From: Pseudomonas fluorescens
GTDB lineage: Bacteria; Pseudomonadota; Gammaproteobacteria; Pseudomonadales; Pseudomonadaceae
DNA length: 64,000 bases
Assembly: GCF_902497855.1 (NCBI RefSeq)
Contig: NZ_CABVHU010000001.1
Coordinates: 814,595-878,594, forward strand
Direction: 5' to 3'
Below the pieces are notes generated by a model that saw only the letters and a list, made by a program, of their open reading frames with translations, ran no database searches and was not told the origin of the DNA. This document shows positions 33,500-53,122 of this stretch, in pieces. Numbering within the stretch: position 1 is the first letter of the stretch; each line of letters starts with the position of its first letter. A program made the translations under genes and the position numbers.

Positions 33500-35155
33500 A
33501 TGCTGGGCTTGATGCAAGATCAACCACTGCTGATTTCATCGGTTCTTGAGCATGCGCTCAGGTCGCATCCACAGAGCGAAATTGCCTCACGCACGGTCGA
33601 AGGGCCGATGCACCACTGTTCCTATGCGGATATTGGCCGGCGTGCCAAGCAATTGGCCAATGCCCTGACGACGCTTGGCGTACAACCAGGCGAGCGGATC
33701 GGTACCCTGGCCTGGAACGGATACCGGCACATGGAGATGTATTTCGGCGTGTCGGGCATGGGCGCCGTTCTGCATACCATCAACCCGCGCCTGTTCCCCG
33801 AACAGGTCGAATTCATCGCCAACCACGCCGCAGACCAGTATTTGTTTTTCGACCTGTCGTTCGCCTCGCTGGTCGAGCAGATTGCGCCACGAATGAAGAC
33901 TGTCAAGGCGTTCATCGCCATGACCGATCGCACAGGGATGCCGGCTATCGACGTGCCAAACCTGCTGTGCTACGAGGACCTGATCGAAAGCCAGAGTAGT
34001 GAGTTCTGCTGGCCAATCCTTGATGAAAAGACCGCCTCGGCACTGTGCTACACCTCAGGCACCACGGGTAATCCAAAGGGCGTGCTGTATTCGCATCGGT
34101 CCTCAATTTTGCACTCGCTGGCACTGTGTACACAGGACGGCTTTGGTCTCTCGATAGCGGACTCGGCACTGTTGGTCGTGCCGATGTTCCACGTCAACGC
34201 TTGGGGCATGCCTTATGCCGGGGCCATGAGCGGCGCCAAGATGGTTCTGCCAGGGCCAGCTCTGGATGGCGAGAGTATCTATGAAATGATGCGTACCGAG
34301 CAGGTGACTCTGGCACTGGGCGTGCCAACGGTGTGGATGATGTTACAGCAGCACGTCGAGGCCCGTGGTTTGGACCCCGCGACCGACCTCTGCCTGAACC
34401 GCGTCGTAATCGGCGGGTCGGCGGTACCAAGAACCCAGATCGAGACCTTCGAACTCCGTTTCGGCGCGCGGGTGATGCAAGCCTGGGGTATGACTGAGAT
34501 GTCGCCGCTCGGTACCGTCTGCAACCTGCTACCCAAACATCGCGTTGCGAAGCTCGACGAGTTGTTGGATCTACAGGTGAAGCAGGGTCGGGCGATGTTC
34601 GGTGTCTCCATGAAGATCGTCAATGAAGAGGGCGTCGAGTTACCCCGTGACGGCAAGGCCTCCGGTCATCTGCTGGTCAAGGGACCCTGGATCGCCAGCG
34701 AGTATTTCCGGGGCGAGGGCGGGCCAATCCTCGATGACGCCGGTTGGCTCGATACCGGTGATATTGCCACTATCGATCCGGATGGCTACATGCAGATCAC
34801 CGATCGTGCCAAGGATGTCATCAAGTCCGGCGGCGAGTGGATCTCCTCGATTGACCTGGAAAATGCCGCCGTTGGTCATCCGGCAGTGGCGGAGGCGGCT
34901 GTTATAGGTATCCCTCACGCCAAGTGGCAGGAGCGACCGCTACTGGTCGTGGTGCTGAAACCCGGCAAGGCCGCCAGCAAGGAAGAGCTGCTGGGCTTCC
35001 TTGAAACACGGGTGGCAAAATGGTGGTTGCCCGAAGATGTAGCTTACGTAACCGAGCTGCCGCACACGGCAACCGGAAAACTGCAAAAAATGAAATTGCG
35101 CGAGCAGTTCCGGGACTATCGTTTAGCAGAGGAGCGTTCAGCAGGAGCGACGTAG
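33500..35155 (+). CDS. Acyl-CoA synthetase / AMP-dependent ligase (AlkK-like)
   Basis: This 551-aa enzyme should activate a carboxylic acid with ATP and CoA. It has the AMP-binding loop [19 protein letters not shown] near residues 185-202, the [11 protein letters not shown] motif near 330, GWLDTGDIA near 415 and the C-terminal catalytic [10 protein letters not shown]. Length and sequence are like medium-chain ligases such as AlkK. An AAAGGAG box precedes the ATG. It is first in the rightward part of the cluster, divergent from the dehydrogenase. Confidence 0.9.
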
Positions 35156-38068: not shown

Positions 38069-38211
38069 TGGCTAGCGGTCATTGACGCAATAGTCTGAGC
38101 TCCAGGTTGAGGTTTCGCTCCTGAGTCGGGTTAGCCCGGTGGGTGTAGCGATGCGTCCAGACATTGAACAAAAAGACTTGCCGGCGCGTGCCGGCTATGA
38201 GGAGCAGGCTT

Positions 38212-39375
38212 ATGAGTCAAAGAGTGCTGATTGCGGGGGTGGGCATGGCCCCGTTCGTCCCGTTGAGCGCTCGCGATAGCGCCGCTTCTCTCGCCGGCCG
38301 GGCGATCCGCTCGGCGCTTGAGGATGCGCGCATCGACTTCGATCTGGTCGACCAGGTGTTCTCTTCTTGCGTGTACAGCGAGGCTGGCAGCGCAGAGCAA
38401 GTACTGGCGCAAATGGGCCTGACCGGTATTCCGATCTTCTCCATTAGCGATGGCTGTGTATCGGCCACCAGTGCATTCCAACTGGCCTGCAATAGCGTGC
38501 AGTCCGGTGAGGTCGAATGCGCACTCGCGCTGGGTTTTGAGCGCATGCCTGCAGGTATCTCCAATCGAGCCTTCTTCGGCCTGGACGAAAGCCCGGCGCA
38601 GGAGTGGGACCGTCTCGGTTACAGAAACAATCCACTGGCCTTTCTTGAGCGCCGCCAGCATCCGGCCGCGTTGTTCGCCGCCCAGACAAGCTGGTTGTTG
38701 ACCCGAATGGGTGTAGCCGAAAGTAGCTTCGAGCGGGTGATGAGTCAGGCCAGGGTTCAGGCACGCTGCAATCCCTTTGCCGTAATGAATCGTTCGTCAG
38801 ACAGCGATGGATGGCTCGCGCCCTATCTCTGCCCACCGGCATGCGGGGCGGCGGCGGTCCTGCTGTGTACCCCGGCGTTCATCGCGCGTTATGGCGCCCG
38901 TGGTGGAGTCGCGGTTCTGGCCAGTGTACGTGGCAGTGACACCGCCTCCGAACTGGAGTCCGGCCATGTGCTTGATGTGCTGGGGCGCGCCGCGACTCGC
39001 CGCGTTGCCCAGCAAGCCTACGAGCACTCCGGACTGGGTGCCGACGAAATCGAAGTGGTCGAGTTGCACGATCAGAGTGTCGGCGACTTCATGGTGAACA
39101 GCGCCGCTTTGGGTTTGTGCGAGGAAGACCAGATCGACACATTCGTGCGCGAACGTCGCAACGCCCGAGGTGCACAGGTTGCCGTCTGCCCCTCGGGCGG
39201 TCTGTTGGGGCGTGGACATGCGCCCGGTGCAACAGGGCTGGCACAGATTGCCGAGCTGGTCTGGCAACTGCGTGGTACGGCCCCGGCCGGCCAAGTCATG
39301 GGTGCCCGGACGGCACTGGCACACAGTGCGGCGCTAGGCCGCTCGGTATCGGTAACCATTCTGCAGCGCACCTGA
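38212..39375 (+). CDS. Thiolase family protein (lipid-transfer/SCP2-thiolase type)
   Basis: This 387-aa protein has the thiolase fold: nucleophile Cys in SDGCVSATSAFQLACNSV near residue 84, and the late SGGLLGRGHAPGATGLAQI with catalytic His. The second catalytic Cys of classic thiolases is not evident, as in SCP2-type thiolases acting on branched or cyclic acyl-CoA. The ATG at 38212 has a GAGGAGC box. It leads a rightward operon: thiolase, DUF1302, DUF1329, YCF48-like, MMPL. Confidence 0.87.
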   Translation: MSQRVLIAGVGMAPFVPLSARDSAASLAGRAIRSALEDARIDFDLVDQVFSSCVYSEAGSAEQVLAQMGLTGIPIFSISDGCVSATSAFQLACNSVQSGEVECALALGFERMPAGISNRAFFGLDESPAQEWDRLGYRNNPLAFLERRQHPAALFAAQTSWLLTRMGVAESSFERVMSQARVQARCNPFAVMNRSSDSDGWLAPYLCPPACGAAAVLLCTPAFIARYGARGGVAVLASVRGSDTASELESGHVLDVLGRAATRRVAQQAYEHSGLGADEIEVVELHDQSVGDFMVNSAALGLCEEDQIDTFVRERRNARGAQVAVCPSGGLLGRGHAPGATGLAQIAELVWQLRGTAPAGQVMGARTALAHSAALGRSVSVTILQRT

Positions 39376-39439: not shown

Positions 39440-41269
39440 ATGATCAACAACAATAAAATCTGCCATGCAAACCTCCGTCGAGGGCTTCTGGCTTCAGCGA
39501 TCCTGGCCGGGTTGGGCATCGCACCCGTGCAAGCCCTGGAAATCGCTACCGGGAATGAAGACCTGTCGGTGCGTTTCGACAACACCTTCAAGTTCAATTA
39601 TGCCCAGCGGGTCGAAAGCCCTAACAGCAAGTTGGCCAATTCGTGGAACAACAACGACGGAGACCGTAACTTCTCCTCGGGCAGTGCGGTGTCTCAGCGC
39701 CTGGATGTGCTCTCGGAGCTGGACGTGGTTTACAAGGAAAAGGCCGGCTTTCGCGTCAGCGCCAACACGTGGTACGACCACGCCTACGACGATGTCGGCA
39801 GCGACAATGCAGCAACCAACCAGCTCAACCACGGGGTACCGGACTCGCGCCACGTGAGCGGCTACGTCGATCGCTACTACAACGGCCCATCGGCCGAGAT
39901 TCTCGATGCCTTTGTCTTCGGCAGCACCGAAGTCGGCGAAGAGTCGATGCTCAGCGCCAAGCTCGGCAAGCACACCCAGTATTGGGGCGAAAGCATCCTG
40001 GCCTTTGCCCACGGCAACAGTTACGGCCAGTCCGGCCTGGACATTACCAAGGCGCTGACGGTACCGGGCACCGAAGCCAAGGAGTTGTTCATTCCGCGCA
40101 ATCAGCTGTCTACCAGCTTCACGTTTAACCCGGAACTCACGCTCGCTGCACAGTACTTTCTCGACTGGGATGCCTCGCGCCTGCCGGAGTCGGGCACGTA
40201 TCTGGGCTTCAACGACGGCATCCAGAGCGGCGGGCATAACCTGTCGCTGATTGGCGGAGTCAACCCGTTTTTTGGTGCGCCCGGGCCGATCGGTGCCAAC
40301 CAGTTTTTGCGCCTGAGCAATGGCCATACCTTCACTCCGGACAAGCACGGCGACTTCGGCTTGATGGCCAAGTGGAGCCCGGAATGGCTGGACGGCACCC
40401 TCGGTCTCTACTACCGCAACACCTCCGATATTTTGCCGAACCTGGCGCTGCAGCCGACGGCCGTCGGCCCTGCGCAACTGATCTCCGGCAACATCGGCAG
40501 CTACAACCAGTTCTATGTGGATGACATCGATATCTACGGGATCAGCCTGTCCAAGAGCATCGCCGGGGTCAGCGTCGGGTTCGACCTGAACTACCGCGAG
40601 AACATGCCGCTGGCCAGCGTGGCGGGGACCGTCAGCCCGGTCGCTGCAGCCGCTGGGTTACCCGGTTTCATCGGCAGCTTCAACGGCGACAACGGGGTGG
40701 CTCGCGGCAACACCGTGCACGCGGTGCTCAATGGCCTGACCACTTTCGCCGATACGCCGGTCTGGGACAGCGCCTCGCTGCTGGTCGAACTTGGTTACAG
40801 CCGCTGGCTGGACGTGACTGACAACAAACAGCTGTTCAAGGGCGAGGACTGGTACCACGGCACCGACAAGGTCACCAAGGACAACTACATCGTTGGCGTC
40901 AACTTCAACCCGACCTGGTACCAGGTGTTCCCTGGCATCGATATGTACATGCCGATGACCTACAACGTCGGCCTCAATGGCAACTCCGCCGTCCAGTTGG
41001 GCGGTAACGAGGACGCCGGCAGCTACTCGGTCGGCATCGGCATGGATGTGCGCAGCCAGTACCGCTTCGACCTGAAGTACGTGGACAACTTCGGTCCGTT
41101 CGATACCTGTGACTCCGCCGGCAGCGCTGGCAATCCGGGAGACGGCGCAGCACCGGGCGCCAACGGGCAGTACAACTGCGCCGTTGGTCAAACCACCGCC
41201 TTCGGCGGAACCCCATCGCAGCTCAAGGATCGCGGCATGGTCACTTTCACCTTCAAAACGACTATCTGA
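39440..41269 (+). CDS. DUF1302 family outer-membrane protein
   Basis: This 609-aa protein has a signal peptide (about residues 1-32, ending PVQALE) and many alternating beta strands ending in a typical outer-membrane C-terminus (GMVTFTFKTTI). DUF1302 proteins are predicted beta barrels that pair with DUF1329 proteins. They recur in gene clusters for hydrophobic compounds such as alkanes, terpenes and sterols. It may be a channel for the cluster's substrate. No porin family of known specificity is recognised. Confidence 0.88.
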   Translation: MINNNKICHANLRRGLLASAILAGLGIAPVQALEIATGNEDLSVRFDNTFKFNYAQRVESPNSKLANSWNNNDGDRNFSSGSAVSQRLDVLSELDVVYKEKAGFRVSANTWYDHAYDDVGSDNAATNQLNHGVPDSRHVSGYVDRYYNGPSAEILDAFVFGSTEVGEESMLSAKLGKHTQYWGESILAFAHGNSYGQSGLDITKALTVPGTEAKELFIPRNQLSTSFTFNPELTLAAQYFLDWDASRLPESGTYLGFNDGIQSGGHNLSLIGGVNPFFGAPGPIGANQFLRLSNGHTFTPDKHGDFGLMAKWSPEWLDGTLGLYYRNTSDILPNLALQPTAVGPAQLISGNIGSYNQFYVDDIDIYGISLSKSIAGVSVGFDLNYRENMPLASVAGTVSPVAAAAGLPGFIGSFNGDNGVARGNTVHAVLNGLTTFADTPVWDSASLLVELGYSRWLDVTDNKQLFKGEDWYHGTDKVTKDNYIVGVNFNPTWYQVFPGIDMYMPMTYNVGLNGNSAVQLGGNEDAGSYSVGIGMDVRSQYRFDLKYVDNFGPFDTCDSAGSAGNPGDGAAPGANGQYNCAVGQTTAFGGTPSQLKDRGMVTFTFKTTI

Positions 41270-41301
41270 TCGAACCGTTGCTTAGCAACAGGAGATATTC
41301 C

Positions 41302-42663
41302 ATGAAATTCGTCAAATCAGTACTGGCCACCACCCTGGCGCTGGCCATCGCCGGCGGCGCCCATGCCGCCGTATCCCCGGACCAGGCCGCCAGGCTCGGT
41401 ACCACGCTGACCGGTGTCGGTGCCGAAAAGGCCGGCAACGCCGACGGCAGTATTCCAGCCTACAGCGGAGGCCTGACCAGTGCGCCAGCCAGCTTTCAGA
41501 AGGGCAGCTCCTTCCGTCCCGACCCATTCGAGGCTGAAAAGCCGAAGATGGTCATCAATGGCAAGAATGCCGCTGAATTCACCGGCAAGTTGACGGCAAC
41601 GACCCAGGAATTGCTCAAGCGTTACCCGTCCTTTCGCGTTGATGTTTTCCCAACCCATCGTACTGTGGGTTTGCCGCAACGACTGCTGGACAACACTGCC
41701 AAAAACGCCGTGGGGACCAAAGCGCTCGAGGGCGGCGTAGCCCTGGAGAACGCACTGCCGGGCGTGCCTTTCCCGATTCCCAACGATGGCAATGAAGCCA
41801 TGTGGAATCACTTGTTGCGCTACCAGGGTTTTGCCCTCAACTCCAAGTACGATTCGTGGAACGTCGACGGTTCCGGTCACGCCACCCTGGCCACCACCGG
41901 CAACGCCTATCTCGAATACCCGCTCTACGATCCGGCCCGTACGGAGCCTGCGAAAGAGAGTGATCTGTTCTTCAAGACCAAGCTCTATTACCAGGGCCCG
42001 GCCCGTCGCGCCGGTGAGGCGATTTTGCTCAACGACGCGGTCAACCCGCTGAAGCAACCGCGCCGCGGCTGGCAATACTTGCCAGGGCAACGGCGCGTGA
42101 AACTGGCACCGGATATTGCCTATGACACGCCAAACCCGGGTTCGGCCGGAGCCTCGACCTATGACGATGCGTGGGTGTTCAACGGTGCACTGGACCGCTA
42201 CGACTTCAAGCTGGTTGGCAAGAAGGAAATGGTCGTTCCTTACAACACCTACAAGTTGAACTATCACAAGGAAGCCGCCGACATCACCACGCCGAACCAC
42301 GTCAACCCGGATCTGGTGCGTTGGGAGCTGCACCGTGTGTGGGTGGTCGAAGCGACCTTGAAACCGGGCAAGCGCCACATCTACAGCAAACGCACCTTCT
42401 ACCTCGACGAAGACAGCTGGATTGCCCTGGCCTCCGATGAATATGACGCCAGCGGAAAACTCTACCGCGGCTCCTTCGCGCATATGGCTTACAGCTATGA
42501 CGTGCAGGCACCGAACTCGGATAACCACATGATCTACGACTTCGTCTCGGGTGGTTACAACATCACAGGCATCTATGGTCCATACGGTGGCATCAAGTAC
42601 ATCGAAGCGCTCTCCAAGGCCCAATGGGCACCGGAGTCGCTGGCCGGCGCGGGTATCCGTTAA
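41302..42663 (+). CDS. DUF1329 family periplasmic/outer-membrane lipid-handling protein
   Basis: This 453-aa protein has a clear signal peptide (MKFVKSVLATTLALAIAGGA then HAA) and the DUF1329 pattern (YQGPARRAGEAILLNDAVNP, RRGWQYLPGQRRVKLAP, YDFVSGGYNITGIYGPYGG). The fold is predicted to be related to LolA/LolB-type carriers, so it may shuttle a hydrophobic molecule to or from the DUF1302 barrel. An AGGAGA box precedes the ATG. A strong terminator follows. Confidence 0.9.
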   Translation: MKFVKSVLATTLALAIAGGAHAAVSPDQAARLGTTLTGVGAEKAGNADGSIPAYSGGLTSAPASFQKGSSFRPDPFEAEKPKMVINGKNAAEFTGKLTATTQELLKRYPSFRVDVFPTHRTVGLPQRLLDNTAKNAVGTKALEGGVALENALPGVPFPIPNDGNEAMWNHLLRYQGFALNSKYDSWNVDGSGHATLATTGNAYLEYPLYDPARTEPAKESDLFFKTKLYYQGPARRAGEAILLNDAVNPLKQPRRGWQYLPGQRRVKLAPDIAYDTPNPGSAGASTYDDAWVFNGALDRYDFKLVGKKEMVVPYNTYKLNYHKEAADITTPNHVNPDLVRWELHRVWVVEATLKPGKRHIYSKRTFYLDEDSWIALASDEYDASGKLYRGSFAHMAYSYDVQAPNSDNHMIYDFVSGGYNITGIYGPYGGIKYIEALSKAQWAPESLAGAGIR

Positions 42664-42685: not shown

Positions 42686-42722
42686 CCATCGGGAAGCGGT
42701 AGAGCTTCCCGATGGCTTTTTT
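42686..42722 (+). terminator. Terminator within the transport operon
   Basis: CCATCGGGAAGC and GCTTCCCGATGG form a perfect 12-bp stem with a GGTAGA loop, then CTTTTTTTTC. It would reduce transcription into the YCF48-like and MMPL genes, giving more DUF1302/DUF1329 than transporter. Confidence 0.85.
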
Positions 42723-42738
42723 TCTCCGGGAAACAGCT

Positions 42739-43815
42739 ATGAATATCTCCAATTGGATAAAGCTCATTGCACTGGGTTCGGTGCTGGTACTGCCCTGTGC
42801 CGGAGCTGTCGTAGCGGCGGATTTTACCGATACGCTCGACAAACCGGCGATCCAGACGGAAAAAGCCCTGCAAGGCAATTTCACGGGGCTGACGGCTGCC
42901 GGCGAACGCCTGGTTGCGGTAGGCCAACGGGGCCATATTTTTTACTCTGACGATGTCGGTATGCGCTGGCAGCAGGCACAAGTACCGGTCAGCTCCGACC
43001 TGGTTGCCGTGCATTTTCCAACGCCGCTCCAAGGCTGGGCCGTCGGCCACGACGGGGTAGTGTTGCATAGCCGGGACGCTGGCCAAACCTGGAGCCGCCA
43101 GTTTGATGGACGTCAAGTCGGCCCGGTCATGCTCGCGTATTACCAGCAGCTGGCCGCCGCGCAGCCCGAGGACAGCGAATTGCCAATGCGGGTCGCCGAG
43201 GCCCGACGCATGATCGAGGAGGGCGCCGATAAACCGTTCCTCGATGTGTGGTTCGAGAGCGACCGCGTCGGTTACATCGTCGGTGCCTTCAACCTGATCT
43301 TCCGCACCGACGACGGGGGGCAAACCTGGACTCCCTGGCTCGATCGTACGGATAACCCGAGTGCGCTGAACCTCTATGCATTGCGTCCGGTCGGCAATGA
43401 GTTATTCATCGTCGGTGAACAAGGACTGATGCTCAAGCTCGACCCGGCAGCGGGGCGTTTCAAGGCTATTGCCACACCGTACAACGGCACTTTCTTCGGT
43501 ATCACCGGCAAGCCCGGTGCCGTGCTGGTCTTCGGCCTGCGTGGTAATGCGTATCGCAGCGTCGATGGCGGTACTAGTTGGAGCAGAGTCGAGCTCGGCC
43601 TGCCTTTGAGCATCACCGCCAGTTCCGTCACAGCCGACGGGCGAATGGTTCTGCTCAGCCAGTCCGGCCATGTGCTGCTCAGCGATGACGACGGCGCCAG
43701 TTTCAAACTGCAGCCACAAAACGGCCTGGCGCCGGTGGCCGCGGCCACTGTATCGAGTTCCGGTTCGCTGGTGCTCGTAGGCGCGCGCGGCCTGCGTCAG
43801 CTGCCCCTCGAATAA
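42739..43815 (+). CDS. YCF48-like beta-propeller protein, exported
   Basis: This 358-aa protein has a signal peptide (LIALGSVLVLPCAGAVVA) and BNR/YCF48-type beta-propeller blades (GHIFYSDDVGMRWQQAQV, GVVLHSRDAGQTWSRQF, RTDDGGQTWTPW). Members next to DUF1302, DUF1329 and RND genes are thought to help assemble the transport system in the periplasm. The ATG at 42739 begins the signal peptide; nine upstream codons lie in the terminator. Confidence 0.87.
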   Translation: MNISNWIKLIALGSVLVLPCAGAVVAADFTDTLDKPAIQTEKALQGNFTGLTAAGERLVAVGQRGHIFYSDDVGMRWQQAQVPVSSDLVAVHFPTPLQGWAVGHDGVVLHSRDAGQTWSRQFDGRQVGPVMLAYYQQLAAAQPEDSELPMRVAEARRMIEEGADKPFLDVWFESDRVGYIVGAFNLIFRTDDGGQTWTPWLDRTDNPSALNLYALRPVGNELFIVGEQGLMLKLDPAAGRFKAIATPYNGTFFGITGKPGAVLVFGLRGNAYRSVDGGTSWSRVELGLPLSITASSVTADGRMVLLSQSGHVLLSDDDGASFKLQPQNGLAPVAAATVSSSGSLVLVGARGLRQLPLE

Positions 43816-43851
43816 GCCCACTTGCGTATAACAAAAGAGACAAGAACAGAT

Positions 43852-46287
43852 ATGGGTACCTACGAACTCGATACGATGCCGGTGGTCAAGGAGCTCAAGG
43901 GCTTTGATGCGCGCTCCGGCAACCTGCTCGAACGCCTGATCTTCAATAACCGCCTGCTGGTCGTGCTGACCTGCCTGGTCGTGACCGTCCTGCTGGGATA
44001 TTTTGCGGCCACCCGGCTGACGCTGACGGCGAGCTTCGAAAAGATGCTGCCGCAGAGCCAGCCATTCATCAAAAACTACCTGGACAATCGCCAGTCCCTG
44101 CGCGGGTTGGGTAATGCCGTGCGGGTGGTGGTGGAGAGCAGCGAAGGCGACATCTACGACCCGCAGTACCTTGAGGTGCTCAAGCAGGTCAACGACACCT
44201 TGTTTATTACCCCTGGCGTGGACCGGGCCTGGATGAAGTCGCTGTGGACTCCGGCGGTGCGCTGGACCGAAGTGACCGAGGAGGGTTTCCAGGGCGGGCC
44301 GGTGATGCCGGACGCCTATGACGGCTCGGCCAAGGGTGTCGAACAACTGCGGCAAAACATTACCCGCTCGGGCATCGTCGGCAGCCTGGTGGGTAACAAC
44401 TTCAAGTCGAGCATGATCTTCGTGCCGTTGCTGGAGAAGGACCCGGTCTCTGGCGAAGCCATCGACTACCATGCCTTCTCGCGCATGCTCGAAGAGCAGC
44501 TGCGCAATAAGTTTGAGTTCAAGGGAGATAGCGCCGCACACAGTGCCGGCGAAGAGGGCAAAGGGCCAATCAAGATCCGCGTAATCGGTTTCGCCAAGCT
44601 GGTCGGTGACCTGATCGACGGCCTGGTGCAGGTGATGATGTTCTTCGGCGCGGCAGCGCTGATTGCCACCGCCATCATCTTCTTCTTCACTCGCTGCGTG
44701 CGCAGCACGACATTGGTAATCCTCTGTTCGGTGATCGCCGTGGCCTGGCAGCTGGGCCTGGTCACGTTGCTGGGCTATGCACTCGATCCGTTCTCGATCC
44801 TGGTGCCGTTTCTGGTCTTTGCCATTGGCGTGTCCCATGGCGCACAGAAGATGAACGGCATCATGCAGGACGTCGGGCGTGGCACCCATCAACTGGTGGC
44901 TGCGCGCTACACCTTCCGCCGTTTGTTTTTGGCCGGGCTGACGGCACTGCTGGCCGATGCGGTTGGTTTCGCCGTGCTGATGCTGATCGACATCCCGGTG
45001 ATCCAGGACCTCGCGGTTACCGCCAGCATTGGCGTCGCGGTGTTGATCTTCACCAACCTGGTGTTGTTGCCGGTGCTGCTGTCCTATTGCGGCGTCAGCC
45101 GCAAGGCGGCCGCACGCACGCTGCGCCAGGAAAACAAGGAACTGCAAGGCAAGGGCCTGGGCAATCTCTGGAGTTTCCTCGATCGCTTCACCGAACGCCG
45201 CTGGGCAACCGGGGCGGTGGTGGTGGCGGGCCTGCTGGCAGCGGGCGGTTTTATGGTCAGCACCCAGTTGAAGATTGGTGACCTCGACCCTGGCGCGCCC
45301 GAGCTGCGTTCGGACTCACGCTATAACCGCGACAATGCCTACATCACCGCCAATTACTCGCTCTCCAGCGATCAGTTCGCCGTGATGATCAAAACCGCCA
45401 GCGAAGGCTGTCTGAAATACGAAACCCTGGTCGAGGCCGATCGTCTCGGTTGGTTGTTGCAGCAGCAACCGGGCGTGCAAACCACAGTGTCGCTGGTTAA
45501 TGCGGTGCGGCAAATCACGGCGGGCTCTTACGAGGGCAACCCGAAGATGCTGACCATCGCGCGCAATCAAGACGTCTTGAACTACGGCGCGCAACAGGCC
45601 TCGGTCAATAACCCTGAGCTGTTCAACAACGATTGCTCGATGATGCCAGTGGTGGCCTATCTGGCCGATCACAAGGCCGAAACCCTCGACCATGTAGTCA
45701 AGGTCGCCGAGGCCTTCGCTCGTGAGCACAGCAACGATGAGCGTCAATTCATGCTGGCTGCCGGCAGCGCGGGGATTGAGGCGGCGACCAACATCGTCGT
45801 GCGCGAAGCCAATCGCACTATGTTGTTCTACGTCTATGGTGCAGTGATCGTGCTCTGTTTCATCACCTTCCGCAGCTGGCGCGCCGTGGTGGTGGCCGTG
45901 GTGCCGTTGATGCTGACGTCCATACTCTGCGAGGCTTTGATGGTCTGGCTGGGCATGGGCGTGAAGGTCGCGACCCTGCCAGTGATCGCCTTGGGCGTGG
46001 GCATCGGTGTCGACTACGCGCTGTACCTGCTCAGTGTGCAGCTGGCTCAACAGCGTGCCGGTCTGTCCTTGACCGAGGCCTACAAGAACTCGGTCGCTTT
46101 TACCGGCAAAGTCGTGGCCCTGGTGGGCATTACCCTGGCGGCGGGCGTCATCACCTGGGCCTGGTCGCCGATCAAGTTCCAGGCCGATATGGGCATCCTG
46201 CTGACCTTCATGTTCATCTGGAACATGATCGGTGCACTGGTACTGATACCGGCGCTGTCGCACTTCCTGCTCAGAAAAGCCAACTGA
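43852..46287 (+). CDS. MMPL/RND-superfamily transporter
   Basis: This 811-aa inner-membrane protein has the RND pattern of two halves, each with one helix, a large periplasmic loop and five more helices (about 12 in total; clusters near 35-55, 260-400, 450-470 and 650-800). Conserved stretches are FLVFAIGVSHGAQKMNG and VIALGVGIGVDYALYLLSV. It resembles the sterol/lipid-type MMPL group. With YCF48, DUF1329 and DUF1302 it probably moves a hydrophobic compound, direction unknown. The TTG upstream at 43822 is less likely than the ATG at 43852. Confidence 0.88.
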   Translation: MGTYELDTMPVVKELKGFDARSGNLLERLIFNNRLLVVLTCLVVTVLLGYFAATRLTLTASFEKMLPQSQPFIKNYLDNRQSLRGLGNAVRVVVESSEGDIYDPQYLEVLKQVNDTLFITPGVDRAWMKSLWTPAVRWTEVTEEGFQGGPVMPDAYDGSAKGVEQLRQNITRSGIVGSLVGNNFKSSMIFVPLLEKDPVSGEAIDYHAFSRMLEEQLRNKFEFKGDSAAHSAGEEGKGPIKIRVIGFAKLVGDLIDGLVQVMMFFGAAALIATAIIFFFTRCVRSTTLVILCSVIAVAWQLGLVTLLGYALDPFSILVPFLVFAIGVSHGAQKMNGIMQDVGRGTHQLVAARYTFRRLFLAGLTALLADAVGFAVLMLIDIPVIQDLAVTASIGVAVLIFTNLVLLPVLLSYCGVSRKAAARTLRQENKELQGKGLGNLWSFLDRFTERRWATGAVVVAGLLAAGGFMVSTQLKIGDLDPGAPELRSDSRYNRDNAYITANYSLSSDQFAVMIKTASEGCLKYETLVEADRLGWLLQQQPGVQTTVSLVNAVRQITAGSYEGNPKMLTIARNQDVLNYGAQQASVNNPELFNNDCSMMPVVAYLADHKAETLDHVVKVAEAFAREHSNDERQFMLAAGSAGIEAATNIVVREANRTMLFYVYGAVIVLCFITFRSWRAVVVAVVPLMLTSILCEALMVWLGMGVKVATLPVIALGVGIGVDYALYLLSVQLAQQRAGLSLTEAYKNSVAFTGKVVALVGITLAAGVITWAWSPIKFQADMGILLTFMFIWNMIGALVLIPALSHFLLRKAN

Positions 46288-46338: not shown

Positions 46339-46381
46339 CGACTGTTGTTTCGTCCTGAATAAGGTTTACACCTGCGGCGTT

Positions 46382-47650
46382 TTAGCGATCAAGCGGGACG
46401 ATGAGCGGGCCGTTGAAGGCCTGCATGATCAGCGATGCCGGCTGGCCGTGGCTGATCAACTGGGCCATGGCATTCATGTATGGGGTCAAATGGCGGAAGT
46501 ATTTCTTGTAGCTTGGGCACAGGTAGTTCAACCCGGGCTCGCCATTGGGCGCGGTCACGAATCGGTTCTTCGGGCACTCGCCATGGCAGGCGAAACGATA
46601 GTCGCATTGCAGGCACATGGCCGGGAGTGTTGCTTCCTTGGCCGCACCGAACGCTTGCTGGGCCGGGGAGGCGAGCAGGGTGGCGGGATCGTCAGTCTGG
46701 ACATTGCCCAGGCGATATTCCGGATACATGAAGTGATCGCATGAATACACGCTGCCGTCATGTTCGACGATCGCGGCTTTGCCGCAGCGCGGGCTGAACA
46801 GGCACACCGACGGCGCCAACTGACACCAGGAGGCCAGCGCCCACTCGAAGTTCATCACATGGATCTCACCCACGTCCTGGCGGACCCACTCGTTGAAAAT
46901 GGTGATGAGGAAATCGCCATAGCTGTCGGGCTCGACACTTTGCGAGGTCACAACAGACACTTCGGGCACGGCATGCAAACGCAGTTCCGGTGGTGTAGCG
47001 AAGCTCAGGCCCTGTTTGATTTCAGGAGCGCCGGGCTGGCGTTCCACCACCGGGTTGAACTGAATGTGCTGGACCCCCTCGGCCTTGAGAAAGTGATAAA
47101 TCTCTAAGGGATACTTCGCCACGTCGCGGGCTACGGTAACCAGTACATTGAATTCCACGCCATGCTGTTTGAGCAAGCCGAGGCCGCGCATGACATCGTC
47201 AAAACTGGAGCGGCCGCGTTTGTCTGGCCGATAGAGGTCATGGACCTGACGCGGGCCGTCGAGGCTGAGGCCGACCATGAAGTGTTCGCGGGCGAGGAAG
47301 GCGCACCAGTCGTGATCGAGCAGGGTGCCATTGGTCTGCAGGGTATTGCGAATGATCTTGCCATTGGCGAACTGACGCTGGTAAGCGACTGCCCGCTGGA
47401 AAAACTCAAGCCCCAACAGCGTCGGCTCACCACCTTGCCAGGTAAATTCCACTTCGGGGCTGGTCTGCGCCTCGATGTAACGCTGCACGTAAGCGCGCAG
47501 CACCTCATCGGGCATGCTGAAGCGTTCGCGGGGTGGGAATAGCTGTTCTTTTTCCAGATAGAAGCAATAAGTGCAATCGAGGTTGCAGATCGGCCCGACC
47601 GGCTTGGCCATGAGGTGCAAGCCTTGAATTGGGGCGTCGATAGTCAACAT
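46382..47650 (-). CDS. Radical-SAM sulfatase-maturating enzyme (anSME/AtsB-like)
   Basis: This 422-aa iron-sulfur enzyme should oxidise an active-site Ser or Cys of a sulfatase to formylglycine without oxygen. The radical-SAM cluster motif is C22-NLD-C26-TY-C29. SLDGP carries the likely catalytic Asp, and the SPASM domain at about 270-375 has many cysteines (CLFSPRC, CDHF, CLQCDYRFACHGEC). The ATG at 47650 starts the family pattern; a 189-codon extension upstream is a shadow of the SDR gene. It pairs with the serine-type sulfatase at 50122-52485. Confidence 0.92.
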   Translation of the reverse strand: MLTIDAPIQGLHLMAKPVGPICNLDCTYCFYLEKEQLFPPRERFSMPDEVLRAYVQRYIEAQTSPEVEFTWQGGEPTLLGLEFFQRAVAYQRQFANGKIIRNTLQTNGTLLDHDWCAFLAREHFMVGLSLDGPRQVHDLYRPDKRGRSSFDDVMRGLGLLKQHGVEFNVLVTVARDVAKYPLEIYHFLKAEGVQHIQFNPVVERQPGAPEIKQGLSFATPPELRLHAVPEVSVVTSQSVEPDSYGDFLITIFNEWVRQDVGEIHVMNFEWALASWCQLAPSVCLFSPRCGKAAIVEHDGSVYSCDHFMYPEYRLGNVQTDDPATLLASPAQQAFGAAKEATLPAMCLQCDYRFACHGECPKNRFVTAPNGEPGLNYLCPSYKKYFRHLTPYMNAMAQLISHGQPASLIMQAFNGPLIVPLDR

Positions 47651-47722
47651 AAAGGGGTCCTCGGGCGGTACCGACCGGTTTCGGTCAGGCTCACAGTCTA
47701 GAGGACGCTCGATAATGCGGTG

Positions 47723-47741
47723 CCCCCCGTGGTCGGGGGGG
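47723..47741. promoter_or_regulatory. C-tract/G-tract motif, copy D
   Basis: CCCCCC, GTGGTC, GGGGGGG, 73 bases upstream of the sulfatase-maturase start and just past the SDR stop. It gives the maturase its own promoter region. Confidence 0.5.
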
Positions 47742-47751
47742 CAGCCAAGGG

Positions 47752-48585
47752 TCACAAATAGCCGATTTTGCGCGCATCGTTTAGAACGATCCGGCGCATC
47801 AGTCCAAGGGAAATACGCTTGATGTTGAAAATCAGTTTGGCGAATGGCCCGATCAGCAACAGGTCCTGACCTTTTTGTACGGCGCGCACCATACCCTCCG
47901 CTACCAGTTCGGGGGCGCAGCCCTTGGCCAGGTAGTAGGCTTGCAGGCGATCGAGCTGGGCATCGCTGACCGATGGCGAGATGTTGCTTCGCGACTGGGT
48001 GATGGGCGTGTTGATGATGCCGGGGCAAACAGTCGTGACGCCGACCTGAGTCCCGGCCAGCTCCATCTTCAGTACTTCGTTGAAGCCGAACACCGCATGT
48101 TTCGACGCTGCATAGGCCGCCATGGTCGGTGACGGATAAATACCGGCCGCCGACGCCACGTTGAGTACATGACGTGCACCACCGGCCTGGATCATCGGCG
48201 GGATGAAGTGATAGCAACCGTGCACCACGCCCATCAGGTTGATATCCATGACGCGTTGCCAGTGGGTCAGATCGCTCTTGAGGAACTGGCCGAGATAGCC
48301 GATGCCAGCGTTATTGATCAGCACATCAAGGGTGCCCAGTGTGAAATGCACATGTTCGGCAAACGCCTGCATCGCACTCTCGTTCGAAACATCCAGAACC
48401 TGGGTCATGCAGGATGCGCCGAGGGCCGAAATCTCCTGCTCGACGATTTTCAGCGCCTGAGGATTGATATCAGTGGCGATGATGTAAGCGCCACGCCGTG
48501 CAAACGCCAGCACCGTTGCCCGACCAATGCCTGAGCCGGCACCGGTGATGAGGACTTTCTTGTTTTTCAGTTCGGGTATGGCCAT
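47752..48585 (-). CDS. Short-chain dehydrogenase/reductase
   Basis: This 277-aa classical SDR has the NAD(P)-binding GAGSGIG at 15-21, the NNAG motif near 91, a Ser in NVASAAG near 144 and the Y158-AAS-K162 active site. It should oxidise an alcohol or reduce a ketone in the cluster's pathway. It lies 45 bases after the VOC-SRPBCC gene on the same strand. The Asp after the second strand (ATDIN) suggests NAD rather than NADP. Confidence 0.92.
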   Translation of the reverse strand: MAIPELKNKKVLITGAGSGIGRATVLAFARRGAYIIATDINPQALKIVEQEISALGASCMTQVLDVSNESAMQAFAEHVHFTLGTLDVLINNAGIGYLGQFLKSDLTHWQRVMDINLMGVVHGCYHFIPPMIQAGGARHVLNVASAAGIYPSPTMAAYAASKHAVFGFNEVLKMELAGTQVGVTTVCPGIINTPITQSRSNISPSVSDAQLDRLQAYYLAKGCAPELVAEGMVRAVQKGQDLLLIGPFAKLIFNIKRISLGLMRRIVLNDARKIGYL

Positions 48586-48630
48586 GTGAACCTCCAGCGT
48601 AATTGGGTGGAATGAGTCGGGGCGCGGGCC

Positions 48631-50037
48631 TCAGCAGCGTTCGATATAAGGTTTCAGGCGCTTGACCAGCATGGTGCCGAGCATCCGTTGGAGCAGGGCG
48701 CGCAACAGATGCCCGGTGCCGGGCAACTTCGGTCGAAAGCGAATGCGCCAAATCAGTTCAGTCGCCTGGCCCAGTTCGCGTAACAGAATTTCGCCCTGGT
48801 GGCAGACGAAGGGCGAGCCTTGGGTCACTCGGTAACGCAAGTGGTGCGGTGGCTGCCAGCCGATCACTTGCTCGACCACGTTCCCGCCGGGGCCGTTCAT
48901 CAAGCGTTCGCTACCGTAGCCATTGCGCTCGTCTATGCCGGCACGTCGCACGGTAATCGGCTTGAAGCCGCTCCACTGGGCCATGCCCTCGTGGTCGCTG
49001 ATGTGAGCCCAGACTTTTTTCACCGAGGCTTCGATGCGCACGCATTGTTCAATACAGTGAGTATCAGGCGCTGGTCGGCGATCCAGCGGCAGCGGCTCGA
49101 AACCCCAGTCACGATCAGCCTTGCCGGGTTTGAGCCAAAGCACCTCATAGGAAAAGCCTTGGGAATCGTTGAGGTAAACCACTCCGGCATTGAGTATCGG
49201 AATATGTACGGGACGACAGTTCGGCTGTGCGCCGGCGGCGCAGGCGCGGCGGTAAACCGTCATCAGATCCTGTTTGTTGTGTGCTCCAAAGGCGATGTTG
49301 AGGATGCCCTGGTCGCTGAGTCGATAGCCTTCGGGCCAGGACTTACCTAACGGGTCCAGGTACTGCACGACTTCCAGCAGCACGTCGCCGGCGAGAAACA
49401 GAAGGCTTTTCCGGTTCGCCCCGGTCAAGCCCCAGAGCGCCTCGTGTTGAGGGCTGTGCAGGGAAGTTTCGGTTTCGGCCAGGCCCATGCCATTGCTCAG
49501 GAAGTCGCAGGTTGATTGCAGGTCAGGCACCGACATGGTCACCGAACGGATTGCAGCGGGGCAGTCACGCCCCGGCTTGACCTGGCCGACCAACGGGTCT
49601 GCTTCCATGATTTCGACATAAACGCCATCGGGGTTGCGAACGCAGGCCCGGCGCTGGCCTGGCTGGCCCTGCACAATGGACAGCGGTTGCGAGCCGAGTC
49701 GGGCGAGGCGGATCAGCGTCTCATCGAAATCGCCCACCCACAAACCAATGCGGGTGTAGCCGATATCGCAGGGACGGAAGTCGGTTGGCATCGGGCGCGC
49801 CATTGGCTGCTCGAACTGGAACAATTCAAGTTGCGCCCAAGGGTTGCTGCCCACTAGCCACCAGCAGGTCGAGGCAGCCTTGGGCAAACCTTGTACCCGT
49901 GAGGGCAGGGGGCCACGCATCATCCATCGGCTACCTCCGGCCGGCAGCAGGCCAAGGCCTTCGCGGAACCAGCGCTCGGTCAAGCGCAGGTCGACGACGG
50001 ACAGGGCAATCTGATTGAGTGGAGGTACGAAACGCAT
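48631..50037 (-). CDS. VOC-VOC-SRPBCC fusion protein
   Basis: This 468-aa protein joins two glyoxalase/VOC domains (about 5-145, opening NQIALSVVDLRLTERWF; and about 160-300, SVTMSVPDLQSTCDFLSNGM) to a C-terminal SRPBCC/polyketide-cyclase-like domain (about 320-468). VOC domains often bind a metal and act in ring cleavage or isomerisation. SRPBCC domains hold hydrophobic ligands. The trio on one chain is unusual; the reaction cannot be named. A terminator-like hairpin separates it from the upstream sulfatase gene. Confidence 0.82.
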   Translation of the reverse strand: MRFVPPLNQIALSVVDLRLTERWFREGLGLLPAGGSRWMMRGPLPSRVQGLPKAASTCWWLVGSNPWAQLELFQFEQPMARPMPTDFRPCDIGYTRIGLWVGDFDETLIRLARLGSQPLSIVQGQPGQRRACVRNPDGVYVEIMEADPLVGQVKPGRDCPAAIRSVTMSVPDLQSTCDFLSNGMGLAETETSLHSPQHEALWGLTGANRKSLLFLAGDVLLEVVQYLDPLGKSWPEGYRLSDQGILNIAFGAHNKQDLMTVYRRACAAGAQPNCRPVHIPILNAGVVYLNDSQGFSYEVLWLKPGKADRDWGFEPLPLDRRPAPDTHCIEQCVRIEASVKKVWAHISDHEGMAQWSGFKPITVRRAGIDERNGYGSERLMNGPGGNVVEQVIGWQPPHHLRYRVTQGSPFVCHQGEILLRELGQATELIWRIRFRPKLPGTGHLLRALLQRMLGTMLVKRLKPYIERC

Positions 50038-50081
50038 GTCGGTATCCGTCGCTCAGGAGGTTTGGGTTACGAAACTGTCTT

Positions 50082-50113
50082 GTAAAAGCCGTCCCGGGAA
50101 GTCTGGGACGGCT
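50082..50113 (-). terminator. Terminator after the arylsulfatase gene
   Basis: AGCCGTCCC and GGGACGGCT form a perfect 9-bp stem; in the minus direction it is followed by TTTTACAAG. It may limit read-through to the VOC-SRPBCC and SDR genes. Confidence 0.65.
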
Positions 50114-50121
50114 GTGGTCGG

Positions 50122-52485
50122 TCAGGGCATGTAGGCGACGTGCACATCGTTGATCTTGCCGTTAAAGGCAAACGGTGCGCGGTCAAAGTAGTCGAGGGTA
50201 ACCGGCGAGCCAAGGTCCTCGGCCACATCGAAAGTCTCGCTCGCGGTAAAGAGTATCGGTGGGGTGAAAGGCGTGACGCCCTTGGCCACTTCCTGTCCAT
50301 TGAGGCGCAGGCTGAGATTGGCCGGCGAGCCAGGCTTGGACGCGGTCATGGTGGTGAGCACCTCTATACTGATTTTTCCGGCCGGCACTCTCTGCTCCGA
50401 ACGCAACTTGACCCGGGCGACGGCCAGCGCGTTGTATTCATAACCCAGGTAGCCATCATCGAGATACAGGCTCACACCGCCACCAATTCCGCCCAGGGCG
50501 TACAGTACGCCGCTGGCGTTGGCAGGTACGACAGCCTCTACCACAACCTTGTTGTTCTGGTTGCGCAGGTTGGGTGCAGTCAACTCCGGCATGCGCTTGG
50601 TGCGGTCGCTGAAATGCCATTCATGCTGGCTAGTGGCGATGCGCGCTGTCGGATCGAGGAACGGATAGAGGCCCGCACCAATCGGGTAGACATGGTTGGC
50701 CTTGGCCTGGACATCGAACTCGGCCTTCAACTCGGCGAGTTTCTCCGGGTGGCTGGCGGCCACATCAGTGGCTTGCGAGTAATCGTGGCTAAGATCGTAA
50801 AGCGCCCACTGGTCGTTCGCAGGATTCCAACCCATGAACTGGGCAAAGCCTTGAACCCAGGGTTTGCGTGGCCCGAATACCGATGCCATCCAGCCGTCCT
50901 TGTAGATGCCACGACTGCCGAGCACTTCGAAATACTGCGCCGGCTTCTTCGACTTCAGCTCGGCATCGTTGAAGGTATAACGCATGCTGATGCCGTCTAG
51001 CGGGTCCTGGATGATGCCATTGACTTCTTTTGGCGCGGTGATGCCCAGCACGTCGTAGACCGTCGGGGCGATGTCGTTGACATGATGGAACTGGCTGCGA
51101 ACCTTGGTATCGACCTTGATTTGCTTGGGCCAGGACACTGCCAGCGGGGTGCGGGTACCACCGAAGTAGCCGGCCACCAGTTTGGTCCCGGGGAACGGCC
51201 CCGAGCCGGCCCAGGCCCAGGCGGCGTTGTACATACCTTCCAGCTTCGCTCCGCCCAACGCCGATAGGCCACCGTACAGGTCATTGAGGGTTTTCAACTG
51301 CTGTTCCTTGGGCACCGGAATGCCATTCTGTGCCAGCAGTTCGCTGATCGTGCCCTCCATGCCTTCGGCTGACGCGCCGTTGTCGCCGAATACATAGAAG
51401 ATCAGGGTGTTGTCGCGTTTGCCCTCGCGTTCCAGTTCGTCGAGGATCTTTCCGGCCTGGGTATCGGCATGCTCCATGAAGCCTGCATAGACTTCCATCA
51501 AGCGTGCCTGGTATTGCTGTTGTTCCGCGGACAGGCTGTTCCATGCCGGCAGTTCCGCCGGACGCGGCGTGAGCTTGGCGTCCTGGGGAATGAAGCCCAT
51601 CTCCTTCTGGCGGGCGAAGGTCTGCTCACGATAGGCATCCCAGCCGCCAGCGAACTGGCCCTTGTACTTGTCCGCCCATTCGGCATTCACCTGGTGCGGG
51701 CCATGCACCGCACCGGGGGTCCAGTAGAGGAAAAAGGGTTTGTCTGGCGCATAGGTCTGCTGATCCTGCAGCCAGTTCACCGCCTGATTCGCCAGGTCTT
51801 CGCTCAGGTGATACTTCGGATCGCGCGGTGGCTCGATTGGTGTGGTGTCGCGGTACAGTCTGGGTTCGTACTGGGACGTTTCGCCCGCCAGGAAGCCATA
51901 AAAATGTTCGAAACCATAGCTGGTCGGCCAGGTGTCGAAGGGACCGGCAGCCGTAGTGTCGAGCGGCGGGGTGTTGTGCCATTTACCGAAAGCGGCGGTG
52001 CTGTAGCCATACTGCTTGAGCACCTCGGCCATGGTTGCTGAACTCTTCGGGATTTCCCCGGTATAGCCATCCCAGTCAGTCGCCAGTTCGGCAATCACGC
52101 CGTTGCCAACCCGGTGGTGATTACGCCCGGTCAACAGCGCGGCGCGAGTCGCCGAGCTGATCGCCGTGGTATGAAAGGCGTTGTAGCGCACACCGCTGTC
52201 AGCGACCCGGCTCAGGGTCGGCGTGTGGATGGCGCCACCGACGGTGTCCGACTGCGCGAAGCCGGCATCGTCGAGCATGATCACCAGAATGTTCGGTGCG
52301 TCTGCAGGTAAATGCGATTGCTGCTGGCGCTTCTGGTGTCTGGACGCTTGCAGCGTAGGCTTGGCGTCACTGGCCGAAGGCGTAGGCGGGAAGGGCAGTG
52401 TGTCCTGTGCGGCGGCGATCGAGCTGGTCAGCAGCATGCACAGCTTCAGTGCGAAGTGCCCGGAGCGTGGCATCTTCTGGGACAT
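50122..52485 (-). CDS. Exported serine-type arylsulfatase, long form
   Basis: This 787-aa sulfatase has a signal peptide (about 1-26, LKLCMLLTSSIAAAQ), the metal-binding MLDDAGF at 70-76, and the active-site motif S110-S-A112-T-R114-xxxx-T-G-R121. The residue to become formylglycine is Ser, not Cys, so it needs an anSME/AtsB-type maturase, encoded 2.5 kb downstream. The length equals the long arylsulfatases with a C-terminal beta domain (about 600-787). It should hydrolyse a sulfate ester in the periplasm. The ATG at 52485 has a GGAG box and starts the signal peptide. Confidence 0.93.
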   Translation of the reverse strand: MSQKMPRSGHFALKLCMLLTSSIAAAQDTLPFPPTPSASDAKPTLQASRHQKRQQQSHLPADAPNILVIMLDDAGFAQSDTVGGAIHTPTLSRVADSGVRYNAFHTTAISSATRAALLTGRNHHRVGNGVIAELATDWDGYTGEIPKSSATMAEVLKQYGYSTAAFGKWHNTPPLDTTAAGPFDTWPTSYGFEHFYGFLAGETSQYEPRLYRDTTPIEPPRDPKYHLSEDLANQAVNWLQDQQTYAPDKPFFLYWTPGAVHGPHQVNAEWADKYKGQFAGGWDAYREQTFARQKEMGFIPQDAKLTPRPAELPAWNSLSAEQQQYQARLMEVYAGFMEHADTQAGKILDELEREGKRDNTLIFYVFGDNGASAEGMEGTISELLAQNGIPVPKEQQLKTLNDLYGGLSALGGAKLEGMYNAAWAWAGSGPFPGTKLVAGYFGGTRTPLAVSWPKQIKVDTKVRSQFHHVNDIAPTVYDVLGITAPKEVNGIIQDPLDGISMRYTFNDAELKSKKPAQYFEVLGSRGIYKDGWMASVFGPRKPWVQGFAQFMGWNPANDQWALYDLSHDYSQATDVAASHPEKLAELKAEFDVQAKANHVYPIGAGLYPFLDPTARIATSQHEWHFSDRTKRMPELTAPNLRNQNNKVVVEAVVPANASGVLYALGGIGGGVSLYLDDGYLGYEYNALAVARVKLRSEQRVPAGKISIEVLTTMTASKPGSPANLSLRLNGQEVAKGVTPFTPPILFTASETFDVAEDLGSPVTLDYFDRAPFAFNGKINDVHVAYMP

Positions 52486-52606
52486 AGGTGTCTCCATCCG
52501 TTGTTGTTTTTCTGAAGAGGTTTACGCTGCTGCCGGTTGGGAGGCTGGGCCTGTATCAATCCGATACCTGCCAAGGCAGCGTGAAGCCTGCGTGGATTGC
52601 AATTCA

Positions 52607-52637
52607 TTGCGATCCCTTCGTGGGGAGGGGATCGCAA
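52607..52637 (-). terminator. Hairpin between cupin and sulfatase genes
   Basis: TTGCGATCCC and GGGATCGCAA form a perfect 10-bp stem with an 11-base loop but no T run on the minus strand. It may be a weak terminator or an mRNA-stability element. Confidence 0.4.
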
Positions 52638-52645
52638 GGGCTGGG

Positions 52646-53122
52646 TCATATCGAGAAGCTGGTGATGTCCTTGGCTTCGATACCGTTGGCTTCACAGAAG
52701 GCTCGGTACCGCTCAACACCGGTTTTCCAGTTTTCGATGGCGCAGACGTTGTTGTTCTCGTCGAAATACACCAGGTCGCCCATGGTGATGTTCAGAGTGA
52801 TGATTTCGTCACCATGCTCGGTGAGGGCAATCGGGGTGTGGCTGGTGGCAGCGGTTTCGAACACCACGCCACCGGGTGTGGCGATCCAGTCGTGCTCGAG
52901 GTACTTCCAGCTGCCTTTGATGGTGTAGACGATTACCGTGCCAGAGTGGTGATGCTTGAGCAGCTTGGTGCCGGCCGGGGCCTTGAGCAGGGTGATGGTT
53001 TCACCGCGAACCGGGTCGCACTTGAAGTATTTGATGAAGACATTATCGTCATAAGGCGTGAAAGGGACCCACGGCAGGTCGTTATCGTTTATGACGGCAG
53101 TATCGATGTTCTCGTACAACAT
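52646..53122 (-). CDS. Cupin, 2,4'-dihydroxyacetophenone dioxygenase-like
   Basis: This 158-aa single-domain cupin has a likely iron site in KLLKHHHSGTVIVYTIKGSW and the matching second half (FETAATSHTPI). The pattern, including WVPFTPYDDNVFIKYFKCDP, matches the 2,4'-dihydroxyacetophenone dioxygenase family, which cleaves an aromatic hydroxyketone to a benzoate and formate. The true substrate here is unknown. The ATG at 53122 has a GGAG box. It heads the leftward transcript cupin-sulfatase-VOC/SRPBCC-SDR. Confidence 0.85.
   Translation of the reverse strand: MLYENIDTAVINDNDLPWVPFTPYDDNVFIKYFKCDPVRGETITLLKAPAGTKLLKHHHSGTVIVYTIKGSWKYLEHDWIATPGGVVFETAATSHTPIALTEHGDEIITLNITMGDLVYFDENNNVCAIENWKTGVERYRAFCEANGIEAKDITSFSI

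Follow-up and report, generated by a model that had tools for sequence, protein, structure and literature searches.

A predicted serine-type sulfatase and its co-encoded anaerobic sulfatase-maturating enzyme in Pseudomonas

We consider a gene cluster of Pseudomonas fluorescens in which a sulfatase with serine at its nucleophile position is encoded together with a radical-SAM (S-adenosylmethionine) maturase. The window, that is, the whole stretch of DNA analysed, comprises 64,000 nucleotides (contig 1, 814595-878594, of a 7.4-Mb genome), and the coordinates given for the cluster are positions in it. The genes on the minus strand are, in order, those of a cupin, the sulfatase, a VOC/SRPBCC protein, a short-chain dehydrogenase (SDR) and the maturase. 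Converging on this set from the plus strand are the genes of an acyl-CoA ligase, a MalT-like regulator, a thiolase, and proteins of the DUF1302, DUF1329, YCF48 and MMPL families (Table 1). A first-pass annotation, made from the letters of the window, had placed here an arylsulfatase with the motif S110-x-A112-x-R114 and a maturase with the motif C22-x3-C26-x2-C29. Its coordinates and both motifs are correct when checked in the translated open reading frames (ORFs), and the neighbour families that it named (SDR, cupin, DUF1302, DUF1329, YCF48, MMPL, thiolase, acyl-CoA ligase and acyl-CoA dehydrogenase) are all recovered by profile.

The sulfatase ORF (50122-52497, minus strand) encodes 791 residues and, counted from its first ATG, the motif S-S-A-T-R occupies S114, A116 and R118. 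With the start at the ATG of position 52485 (Met5 of the long ORF), the motif becomes S110/A112/R114; Met5 is invariant across 30 aligned rows, and a GGAG lies just upstream of this ATG. In the 791-residue numbering, which we use for the residues and domains that follow, the motif satisfies the S1 signature [CS]-x-[PA]-x-R, and S114 falls on the nucleophile position in a phmmer alignment with Pseudomonas aeruginosa AtsA. Residues D76, D77, A116, R118, K172, H174, H265, H268, D372, N373 and K439 were traced across the family alignment, and the metal- and sulfate-binding set (all of these but A116) is intact. By these residues, the protein is a serine-type (Ser-type) member of the S1 family with an intact catalytic set, and a predicted formylglycine enzyme. 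Its closest named relatives in a contig scan are all from Pseudomonas.

The AlphaFold model of the sulfatase (pLDDT 86.5) contains a catalytic domain at about residues 66-605 and a C-terminal laminin-G-like beta-sandwich at about 620-791. The sulfatase fold is supported by comparison with P. aeruginosa AtsA (1hdh; Z 44.9, 491 residues, root-mean-square deviation (rmsd) 2.2, 31% identity) and with 7all (Z 44.7, 482 residues, rmsd 2.1); AtsA chains and 7all are the closest structural matches, and human steroid sulfatase ranks lower (8eg3; Z 34.5, 423 aligned, rmsd 3.1). The last 172 residues, modelled as the beta-sandwich with a pLDDT of 92.6, match 7zc9 (Z 14.7, 143 residues, rmsd 2.8). Because a large number of laminin-G and CBM40 chains score within 2 Z in this comparison and the fold alone shows no ligand, we assign none to the domain. 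The sulfatase may be exported, as is suggested by its N-terminal hydrophobic stretch (modelled as a helix at residues 18-30 at low confidence) rather than by a signal-peptide prediction.

The maturase scores above the equivalog cut-off of TIGR03942 (484 bits against 349.45) and is the sole gene of its genome to do so, two weaker matches falling below. The closest solved chains are the anaerobic sulfatase-maturating enzyme (anSME) structures 4k36 and 4k37 (E 1.5e-58 or better), and the nearest named maturase is Escherichia coli AslB, 51% identical. In addition to the radical-SAM cysteines C22, C26 and C29, the protein has eight auxiliary-cluster cysteines (C283, C289, C304, C346, C349, C355, C359 and C378) and a catalytic aspartate (D305), roles that we presume from the alignment with 4k36. 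None of the 11 cysteines, nor D305, varies across the 42 aligned rows, a number that counts the window gene twice. On profile and alignment we assign the maturase as an anSME, encoded 2.47 kb from the sulfatase gene.

The pair is seen in other genomes as well. A contig scan with the sulfatase gives 31 loci, of which 15, all in Pseudomonas and at 78-89% identity, are Ser-type; the other 16 (41-57%) comprise 15 cysteine-type (Cys-type) members and one C-terminal fragment lacking the motif. Adding the window gene, the copy in G310 (L081) and a further one in strain TH41 (L054) brings the 15 loci to 18 distinct Ser genes, and in the alignment every distinct Pseudomonas copy at 78% identity or more (18/18) is Ser-type. 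An anSME gene lies within the fetched stretch at 16 of these 18 loci. Among 298 Pseudomonas genomes, the sulfatase (at least 79%) is found in 8 and the maturase (at least 75%) in the same 8 (Fisher 7e-16, relatedness ignored). For the 14 genomes behind named loci, a protein over the TIGR03942 cut-off is present in 4/4 Ser genomes and in 0/10 Cys genomes. The Pseudomonas Ser sulfatase family is never seen without an anSME among the genomes examined, and this distribution indicates that sulfatase and maturase are inherited together and are not a chance pairing. The first-pass proposal of a Ser-type sulfatase supplied with a radical-SAM maturase of its own is borne out in this way in other Pseudomonas.

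The readable relatives at 38-59% are Cys-type, save one outside the genus Pseudomonas. The 17 Pseudomonas loci fetched for this type hold 18 Cys members (38-47%). A formylglycine-generating enzyme (FGE) neighbours the Cys-type sulfatase at 7 of the 17, an anSME at none. The FGE genes were found by a custom signature and then confirmed by PF03781 at 257-266 bits; the one at L076, aligned to the FGE 6s07, retains both cysteines of the C-x4-C pair. In Roseobacter litoralis a Cys relative is followed by a short gene annotated SUMF1/EgtB/PvdO, and the five relatives fetched from 116 plasmid records (50-59%) are Cys-type. The genome of the window has no recognisable sulfatase FGE, PvdO (551 bits, cut-off 500) being the sole PF03781 protein that it encodes; among its seven other PF00884 loci that were read, three (L005-L007) have Cys motifs and four have no motif by the pattern used. 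Both arrangements occur in one genome, Pseudomonas arsenicoxydans E3 (G241), where one sulfatase, of the Ser type, goes with an anSME and another, of the Cys type, with an FGE. That some relatives within the genus combine Cys with FGE goes beyond the first-pass annotation and is a more telling point than the pair itself.

The sulfatase tree is a quick tree of 60 rows with a midpoint root, computed with the L009/L057 sequence and the copy of the window gene left out. All 17 Pseudomonas Ser rows in it fall into a single clade (SH-aLRT 100), enclosed by one of 30 rows (100) of which the remaining 13 are Cys. Since the Ser clade is nested among Cys enzymes, Ser is probably the derived state, and the change in Pseudomonas is probably best read as Cys to Ser; the codons of the two types are one base apart at each of two sites (TGY to AGY, and CCN to GCN for P to A). 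The Pseudomonas rows of the maturase tree, 18 in number, likewise group as a single clade (100/100). This clade divides first into 4 and 14 rows, much as the sulfatase clade divides into 4 and 13. E. coli AslB and a gene from G535 make up its sister group (98/93), and the sulfatase beside the G535 gene (L104) is a short, Cys-type ORF of the window sulfatase family. With Cys relatives in the genus often adjoining an FGE, this pattern suggests that nucleophile and maturase changed together.

From these comparisons we infer the chemistry, and the order of modification and export, as follows. The sulfatase would be synthesised in the cytoplasm with a serine at position 110 (114 in the long ORF), and the co-encoded anSME, holding a SAM-binding [4Fe-4S] cluster and two auxiliary clusters, would oxidise this serine to formylglycine before export. 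The exported enzyme would then hydrolyse a sulfate ester by the ordinary formylglycine mechanism. At the level of a guess, the desulfated product might be handled by the SDR, the cupin, the CoA ligase and the thiolase, with an AmeABCD-like pump for tolerance; a speculative route would lead from the sulfate ester to an alcohol, by the SDR to a ketone, by cupin cleavage to an acid, and on to the CoA ligase and the thiolase. Within the sulfatase family, Ser would have replaced the Cys nucleophile, and the anSME would have replaced the oxygen-using FGE of several Cys relatives. We have good confidence in reading the cluster as a patchily distributed Pseudomonas sulfatase module, in which a Ser sulfatase derived from the Cys type is matured by the co-encoded anSME.

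Several observations weigh against this reading. The anSME gene is 26 kb away on the same contig at one Ser locus (L009) and on another contig at a second (L020). The window maturase falls below the cut-off of PRK13745 (459.9 against 484), a second anSME model of the same kind that is not required for TIGR03942 membership. The two most divergent rows of the midpoint-rooted sulfatase tree, L120 and L122, are Ser-type with anSME neighbours, so that Ser exists elsewhere in the wider family. Three Pseudomonas anSMEs of about 47-51% identity (G096, G194 and G235) lie near Cys sulfatases of another kind. At 20 further anSME loci that were fetched, a sulfatase is recognised at 12, all outside Pseudomonas, of which eight are Ser and four Cys (L104, L113, L116 and L118). 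An anSME beside sulfatases of both types does not require Ser, and parts of PMC3920027 state that anSMEs accept Cys too. Finally, 10 of the 17 Cys loci have neither the FGE signature nor an anSME in the fetched stretch and the Cys sulfatases L005-L007 of the window genome are likewise without an evident FGE, so another maturation route may exist; an excerpt of PMC8379841 mentions a third system suspected in E. coli.

A bolder extension, which we put forward as tentative and somewhat doubtful, is that a sulfatase lineage of a respiratory genus changed its nucleophile and its maturase together, passing from Cys/FGE to Ser/anSME, that the anSME works in respiring cells, and that it may also mature the Cys sulfatases of its own genome. 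If this is true, formylglycine formation after the exchange no longer needs oxygen or copper. The occurrence of Ser with anSME and of Cys, often with FGE, within one family and genus (and of both in G241) offers a natural experiment on what leads a cell to form the same residue by an oxygen-using or by an oxygen-sensitive route. The maturase is also a candidate anSME from a genus easily grown in air, which would be useful for the aldehyde tagging of proteins.

Table 1. Features of the sulfatase cluster, in window positions
Feature	Position	Strand	Match or remark
Ser-type S1 sulfatase, 787 aa	50122..52485	-	PF00884 195 bits; ORF to 52497 = 791 aa
S-S-A-T-R codons AGC TCG GCG ACT CGC	52144..52158	-	computed from residue 114 of the ORF starting at 52497
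Anaerobic sulfatase-maturating enzyme (radical SAM/SPASM), 422 aa	46382..47650	-	PF04055+PF13186, TIGR03942
ChrR-like cupin, directly upstream of sulfatase	52646..53122	-	PF12973; ATG at 53122
VOC (glyoxalase) + polyketide-cyclase/SRPBCC-like protein	48631..50037	-	PF13669+PF10604
Short-chain dehydrogenase (SDR)	47752..48585	-	PF00106
DUF1302 protein (AmeA-like)	39440..41269	+	PF06980 353 bits
DUF1329 protein (AmeB-like)	41278..42663	+	PF07044 457 bits
YCF48/BNR protein (AmeC-like)	42712..43815	+	PF14870
MMPL/RND inner-membrane transporter (AmeD-like)	43822..46287	+	PF03176
SCP2-type thiolase-like protein	38164..39375	+	PF22691; 6hsj E 5e-49
MalT-like LuxR regulator	35316..37985	+	PF00196, PF17874
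Acyl-CoA ligase	33500..35155	+	PRK07008 844 bits, cut-off 822
Acyl-CoA dehydrogenase, long form; tie to cluster uncertain	31364..33148	-	profile match

The neighbours differ in how constant they are. The cupin lies directly upstream of the sulfatase at 18/18 Ser loci. It had been named a cupin dioxygenase; the cupin family stands, while the dioxygenase goes beyond the similarity, which is to 2,4'-dihydroxyacetophenone dioxygenase at E 8e-16, the closest chain being the uncharacterised cupin 3ebr (E 1e-65). The reaction of 2,4'-dihydroxyacetophenone dioxygenase converts an alpha-hydroxyketone to an acid and formate. The ligase, the thiolase and the SDR are less constant than the cupin and the maturase among the Ser loci, the SDR being near the sulfatase or maturase at only part of them. 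A full-length homologue of the VOC/SRPBCC protein is found among the other loci at L009 only, and no close homologue of the acyl-CoA dehydrogenase is seen beside other Ser loci. The score of the ligase over the PRK07008 cut-off, that of 3-(methylthio)propionyl-CoA ligase, makes a methylthiopropionate-type role of the ligase possible.

The DUF1302-DUF1329-YCF48-MMPL genes are an AmeABCD-type cassette by the composition and order of the four genes; the best NCBIfam match of the AmeD-like transporter, HAE3 (TIGR00921, 139.9), is below its cut-off of 351.9. AmeABCD is described, in parts of PMC6394551, as an efflux system of monoterpene metabolism. Relatives of AmeD at E<=1e-200 occur in 286 of the 298 Pseudomonas genomes, and close ones sit in varied gene surroundings, so the cassette does not specify a substrate; as a specific partner of the sulfatase, AmeD was rejected on the same count. 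At 83% identity or more, AmeD is found, among the matches listed, in 16 genomes: the 8 with the Ser sulfatase, and 8 among the remaining 290 (Fisher 9e-12). The earlier proposal of a pathway for a sulfated hydrophobic or aromatic compound reads more into the neighbours than they support, as the Ame cassette is unspecific and the neighbours vary between loci. As to the substrate, our guess is a sulfate of an alcohol or an aryl sulfate whose body is hydrophobic.

Other explanations can be weighed on the same evidence. That unrelated genes came together in the window by chance, for which the variation of some neighbours between loci might speak, has a negligible probability and is refuted by the recurrence of cupin, sulfatase and maturase together in many species. 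It is also very unlikely that the serine stays unconverted, the enzyme being inactive or working unmodified and the radical-SAM protein serving another sulfatase: an excerpt of PMC8379841 considers that another Ser-type enzyme might act without formylglycine, whereas here the two genes occupy the same 8 of 298 genomes and the same stretch at 16/18 loci, and the remaining catalytic residues are conserved.

The purpose of the sulfatase could be sulfur scavenging from diverse sulfate esters with the catabolic neighbours incidental, which we consider rather unlikely. The near-ubiquity of AmeD relatives in the genus, with close ones in other surroundings, and the differences in SDR, ligase and thiolase between loci agree with scavenging; the constant cupin, the concentration of the closest AmeD in the Ser genomes, again among the matches listed, and the lack of any typical sulfate-starvation gene among the annotated neighbours argue against it. 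We regard as improbable that the enzyme desulfates a steroid or bile-acid sulfate and so makes it accessible to a steroid degradation pathway whose genes lie elsewhere in the genome. Such a pathway is hinted at by an Ltp2 over its cut-off (683.6 bits, cut-off 469) at 416-464 kb of contig 1, about 400 kb from the window, and by an HsaC-like dioxygenase of the same region at 280 bits, below its cut-off of 450; L104, moreover, holds a Cys member of the sulfatase family, an anSME and ChsH2/Ltp2-like genes within 17 kb. However, Ltp2, as one marker only, is over its cut-off in 2/8 Ser genomes against 25/290 others (Fisher p 0.16), no steroid-ring gene is recognised among the profile-annotated genes of the window cluster, and the sulfatase model is closer to AtsA chains and 7all than to human steroid sulfatase.

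Some further features were recorded. The 400-480 kb region of contig 1 (L142-L145) looks like a steroid or bile-acid catabolic island, with Ltp2 scoring over its cut-off, KstD-like and HsaC-like proteins that stay under theirs, and further DUF1329-, DUF1302-, YCF48- and MMPL-like ORFs, several of them named by eye. The L104 stretch contains transposase-like ORFs besides its short sulfatase ORF, anSME and ChsH2/Ltp2-like steroid side-chain genes. The TH41 and P. arsenicoxydans genomes (L052 and L077) have further CTPSR sulfatases of about 480-490 residues near the Ser-type system, and L077 also has a second, incomplete copy of the Ser-type gene (82%, covering residues 591-791). DUF1254-type proteins recur near sulfatase-family members or the maturase in Pseudomonas, Roseobacter and Mycobacterium (L054, L053, L011-L015, L029, L081, L061, L062, L159 and L160); the gene lists of loci were drawn up with a simple ORF caller. 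A plasmid origin was considered and rejected, as no plasmid record exceeds 60% identity for either protein (76 maturase and 116 sulfatase records); an arylsulfatase/radical-SAM region is described on a pQBR plasmid (PMC4989453). The G+C content of window positions 22001-32000 is 0.49-0.55, compared with about 0.60 around the sulfatase, which may mark a foreign insertion. A promoter and terminator scan of 46200-54000 gives no promoter-like site and 5 terminator-like sites against 7.8 in shuffles, and a tRNA scan of the window gives none.

Pseudomonas is a respiratory genus, some members of which denitrify. The SulfAtlas paper (PMC5066984) excludes Ser-type sulfatases from strictly aerobic prokaryotes, a statement that the Pseudomonas Ser sulfatase contradicts only if the host strains are strict aerobes; the passages of PMC10797017 contain no statement on the aerobic status of species with Ser sulfatases. 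We noticed no Ser-type sulfatase in Pseudomonas in the literature, going mostly by open-licence titles and abstracts. Ser- and Cys-type sulfatases, FGE and anSME are already known, and Ser-type/anSME systems are an established kind according to parts of PMC3920027.

The maturase has its nearest named counterpart in the AslA/AslB pair of E. coli. AslB belongs to the sister group of the Pseudomonas maturases, and AslA beside it is Ser-type (SSPTR); AslA, however, has 551 residues and only about 26% identity over 282 residues to the window sulfatase, and E. coli is a facultative anaerobe. The structures 4k36-4k39, which we take to be the anSME of Clostridium perfringens, match the window maturase at E 6.5e-59 over the radical-SAM and SPASM parts with the aligned cluster cysteines and aspartate kept; that enzyme is from an anaerobe with a Cys-type sulfatase. 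P. aeruginosa AtsA (1hdh), whose nucleophile is Cys, is among the closest solved structures of the window sulfatase, which keeps the catalytic residues that align with it. As AtsA chains (about 515-534 residues) cover no more of the model than residues 66-610, the C-terminal beta-sandwich of the window sulfatase is extra. The AmeABCD genes of Castellaniella defragrans, as far as they are described, comprise DUF1302, DUF1329, COG4447 (photosystem II assembly-factor-like) and HAE3 RND in the same order as the window cassette, a likeness of composition and gene order, and are in a monoterpene island, whereas the window cassette is beside a sulfatase. Klebsiella AtsA has the motif S-x-A-x-R. In Klebsiella AtsA/AtsB, set beside the window pair by description, serine is converted to formylglycine with an iron-sulfur maturase, going by the titles of cited papers, and the enterobacterial operon is, by title, regulated by tyramine and sulfur. 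Compared with this, the window sulfatase comes from a respiratory genus, has a 791-residue ORF with an extra beta-sandwich, and belongs to an otherwise Cys-type family.

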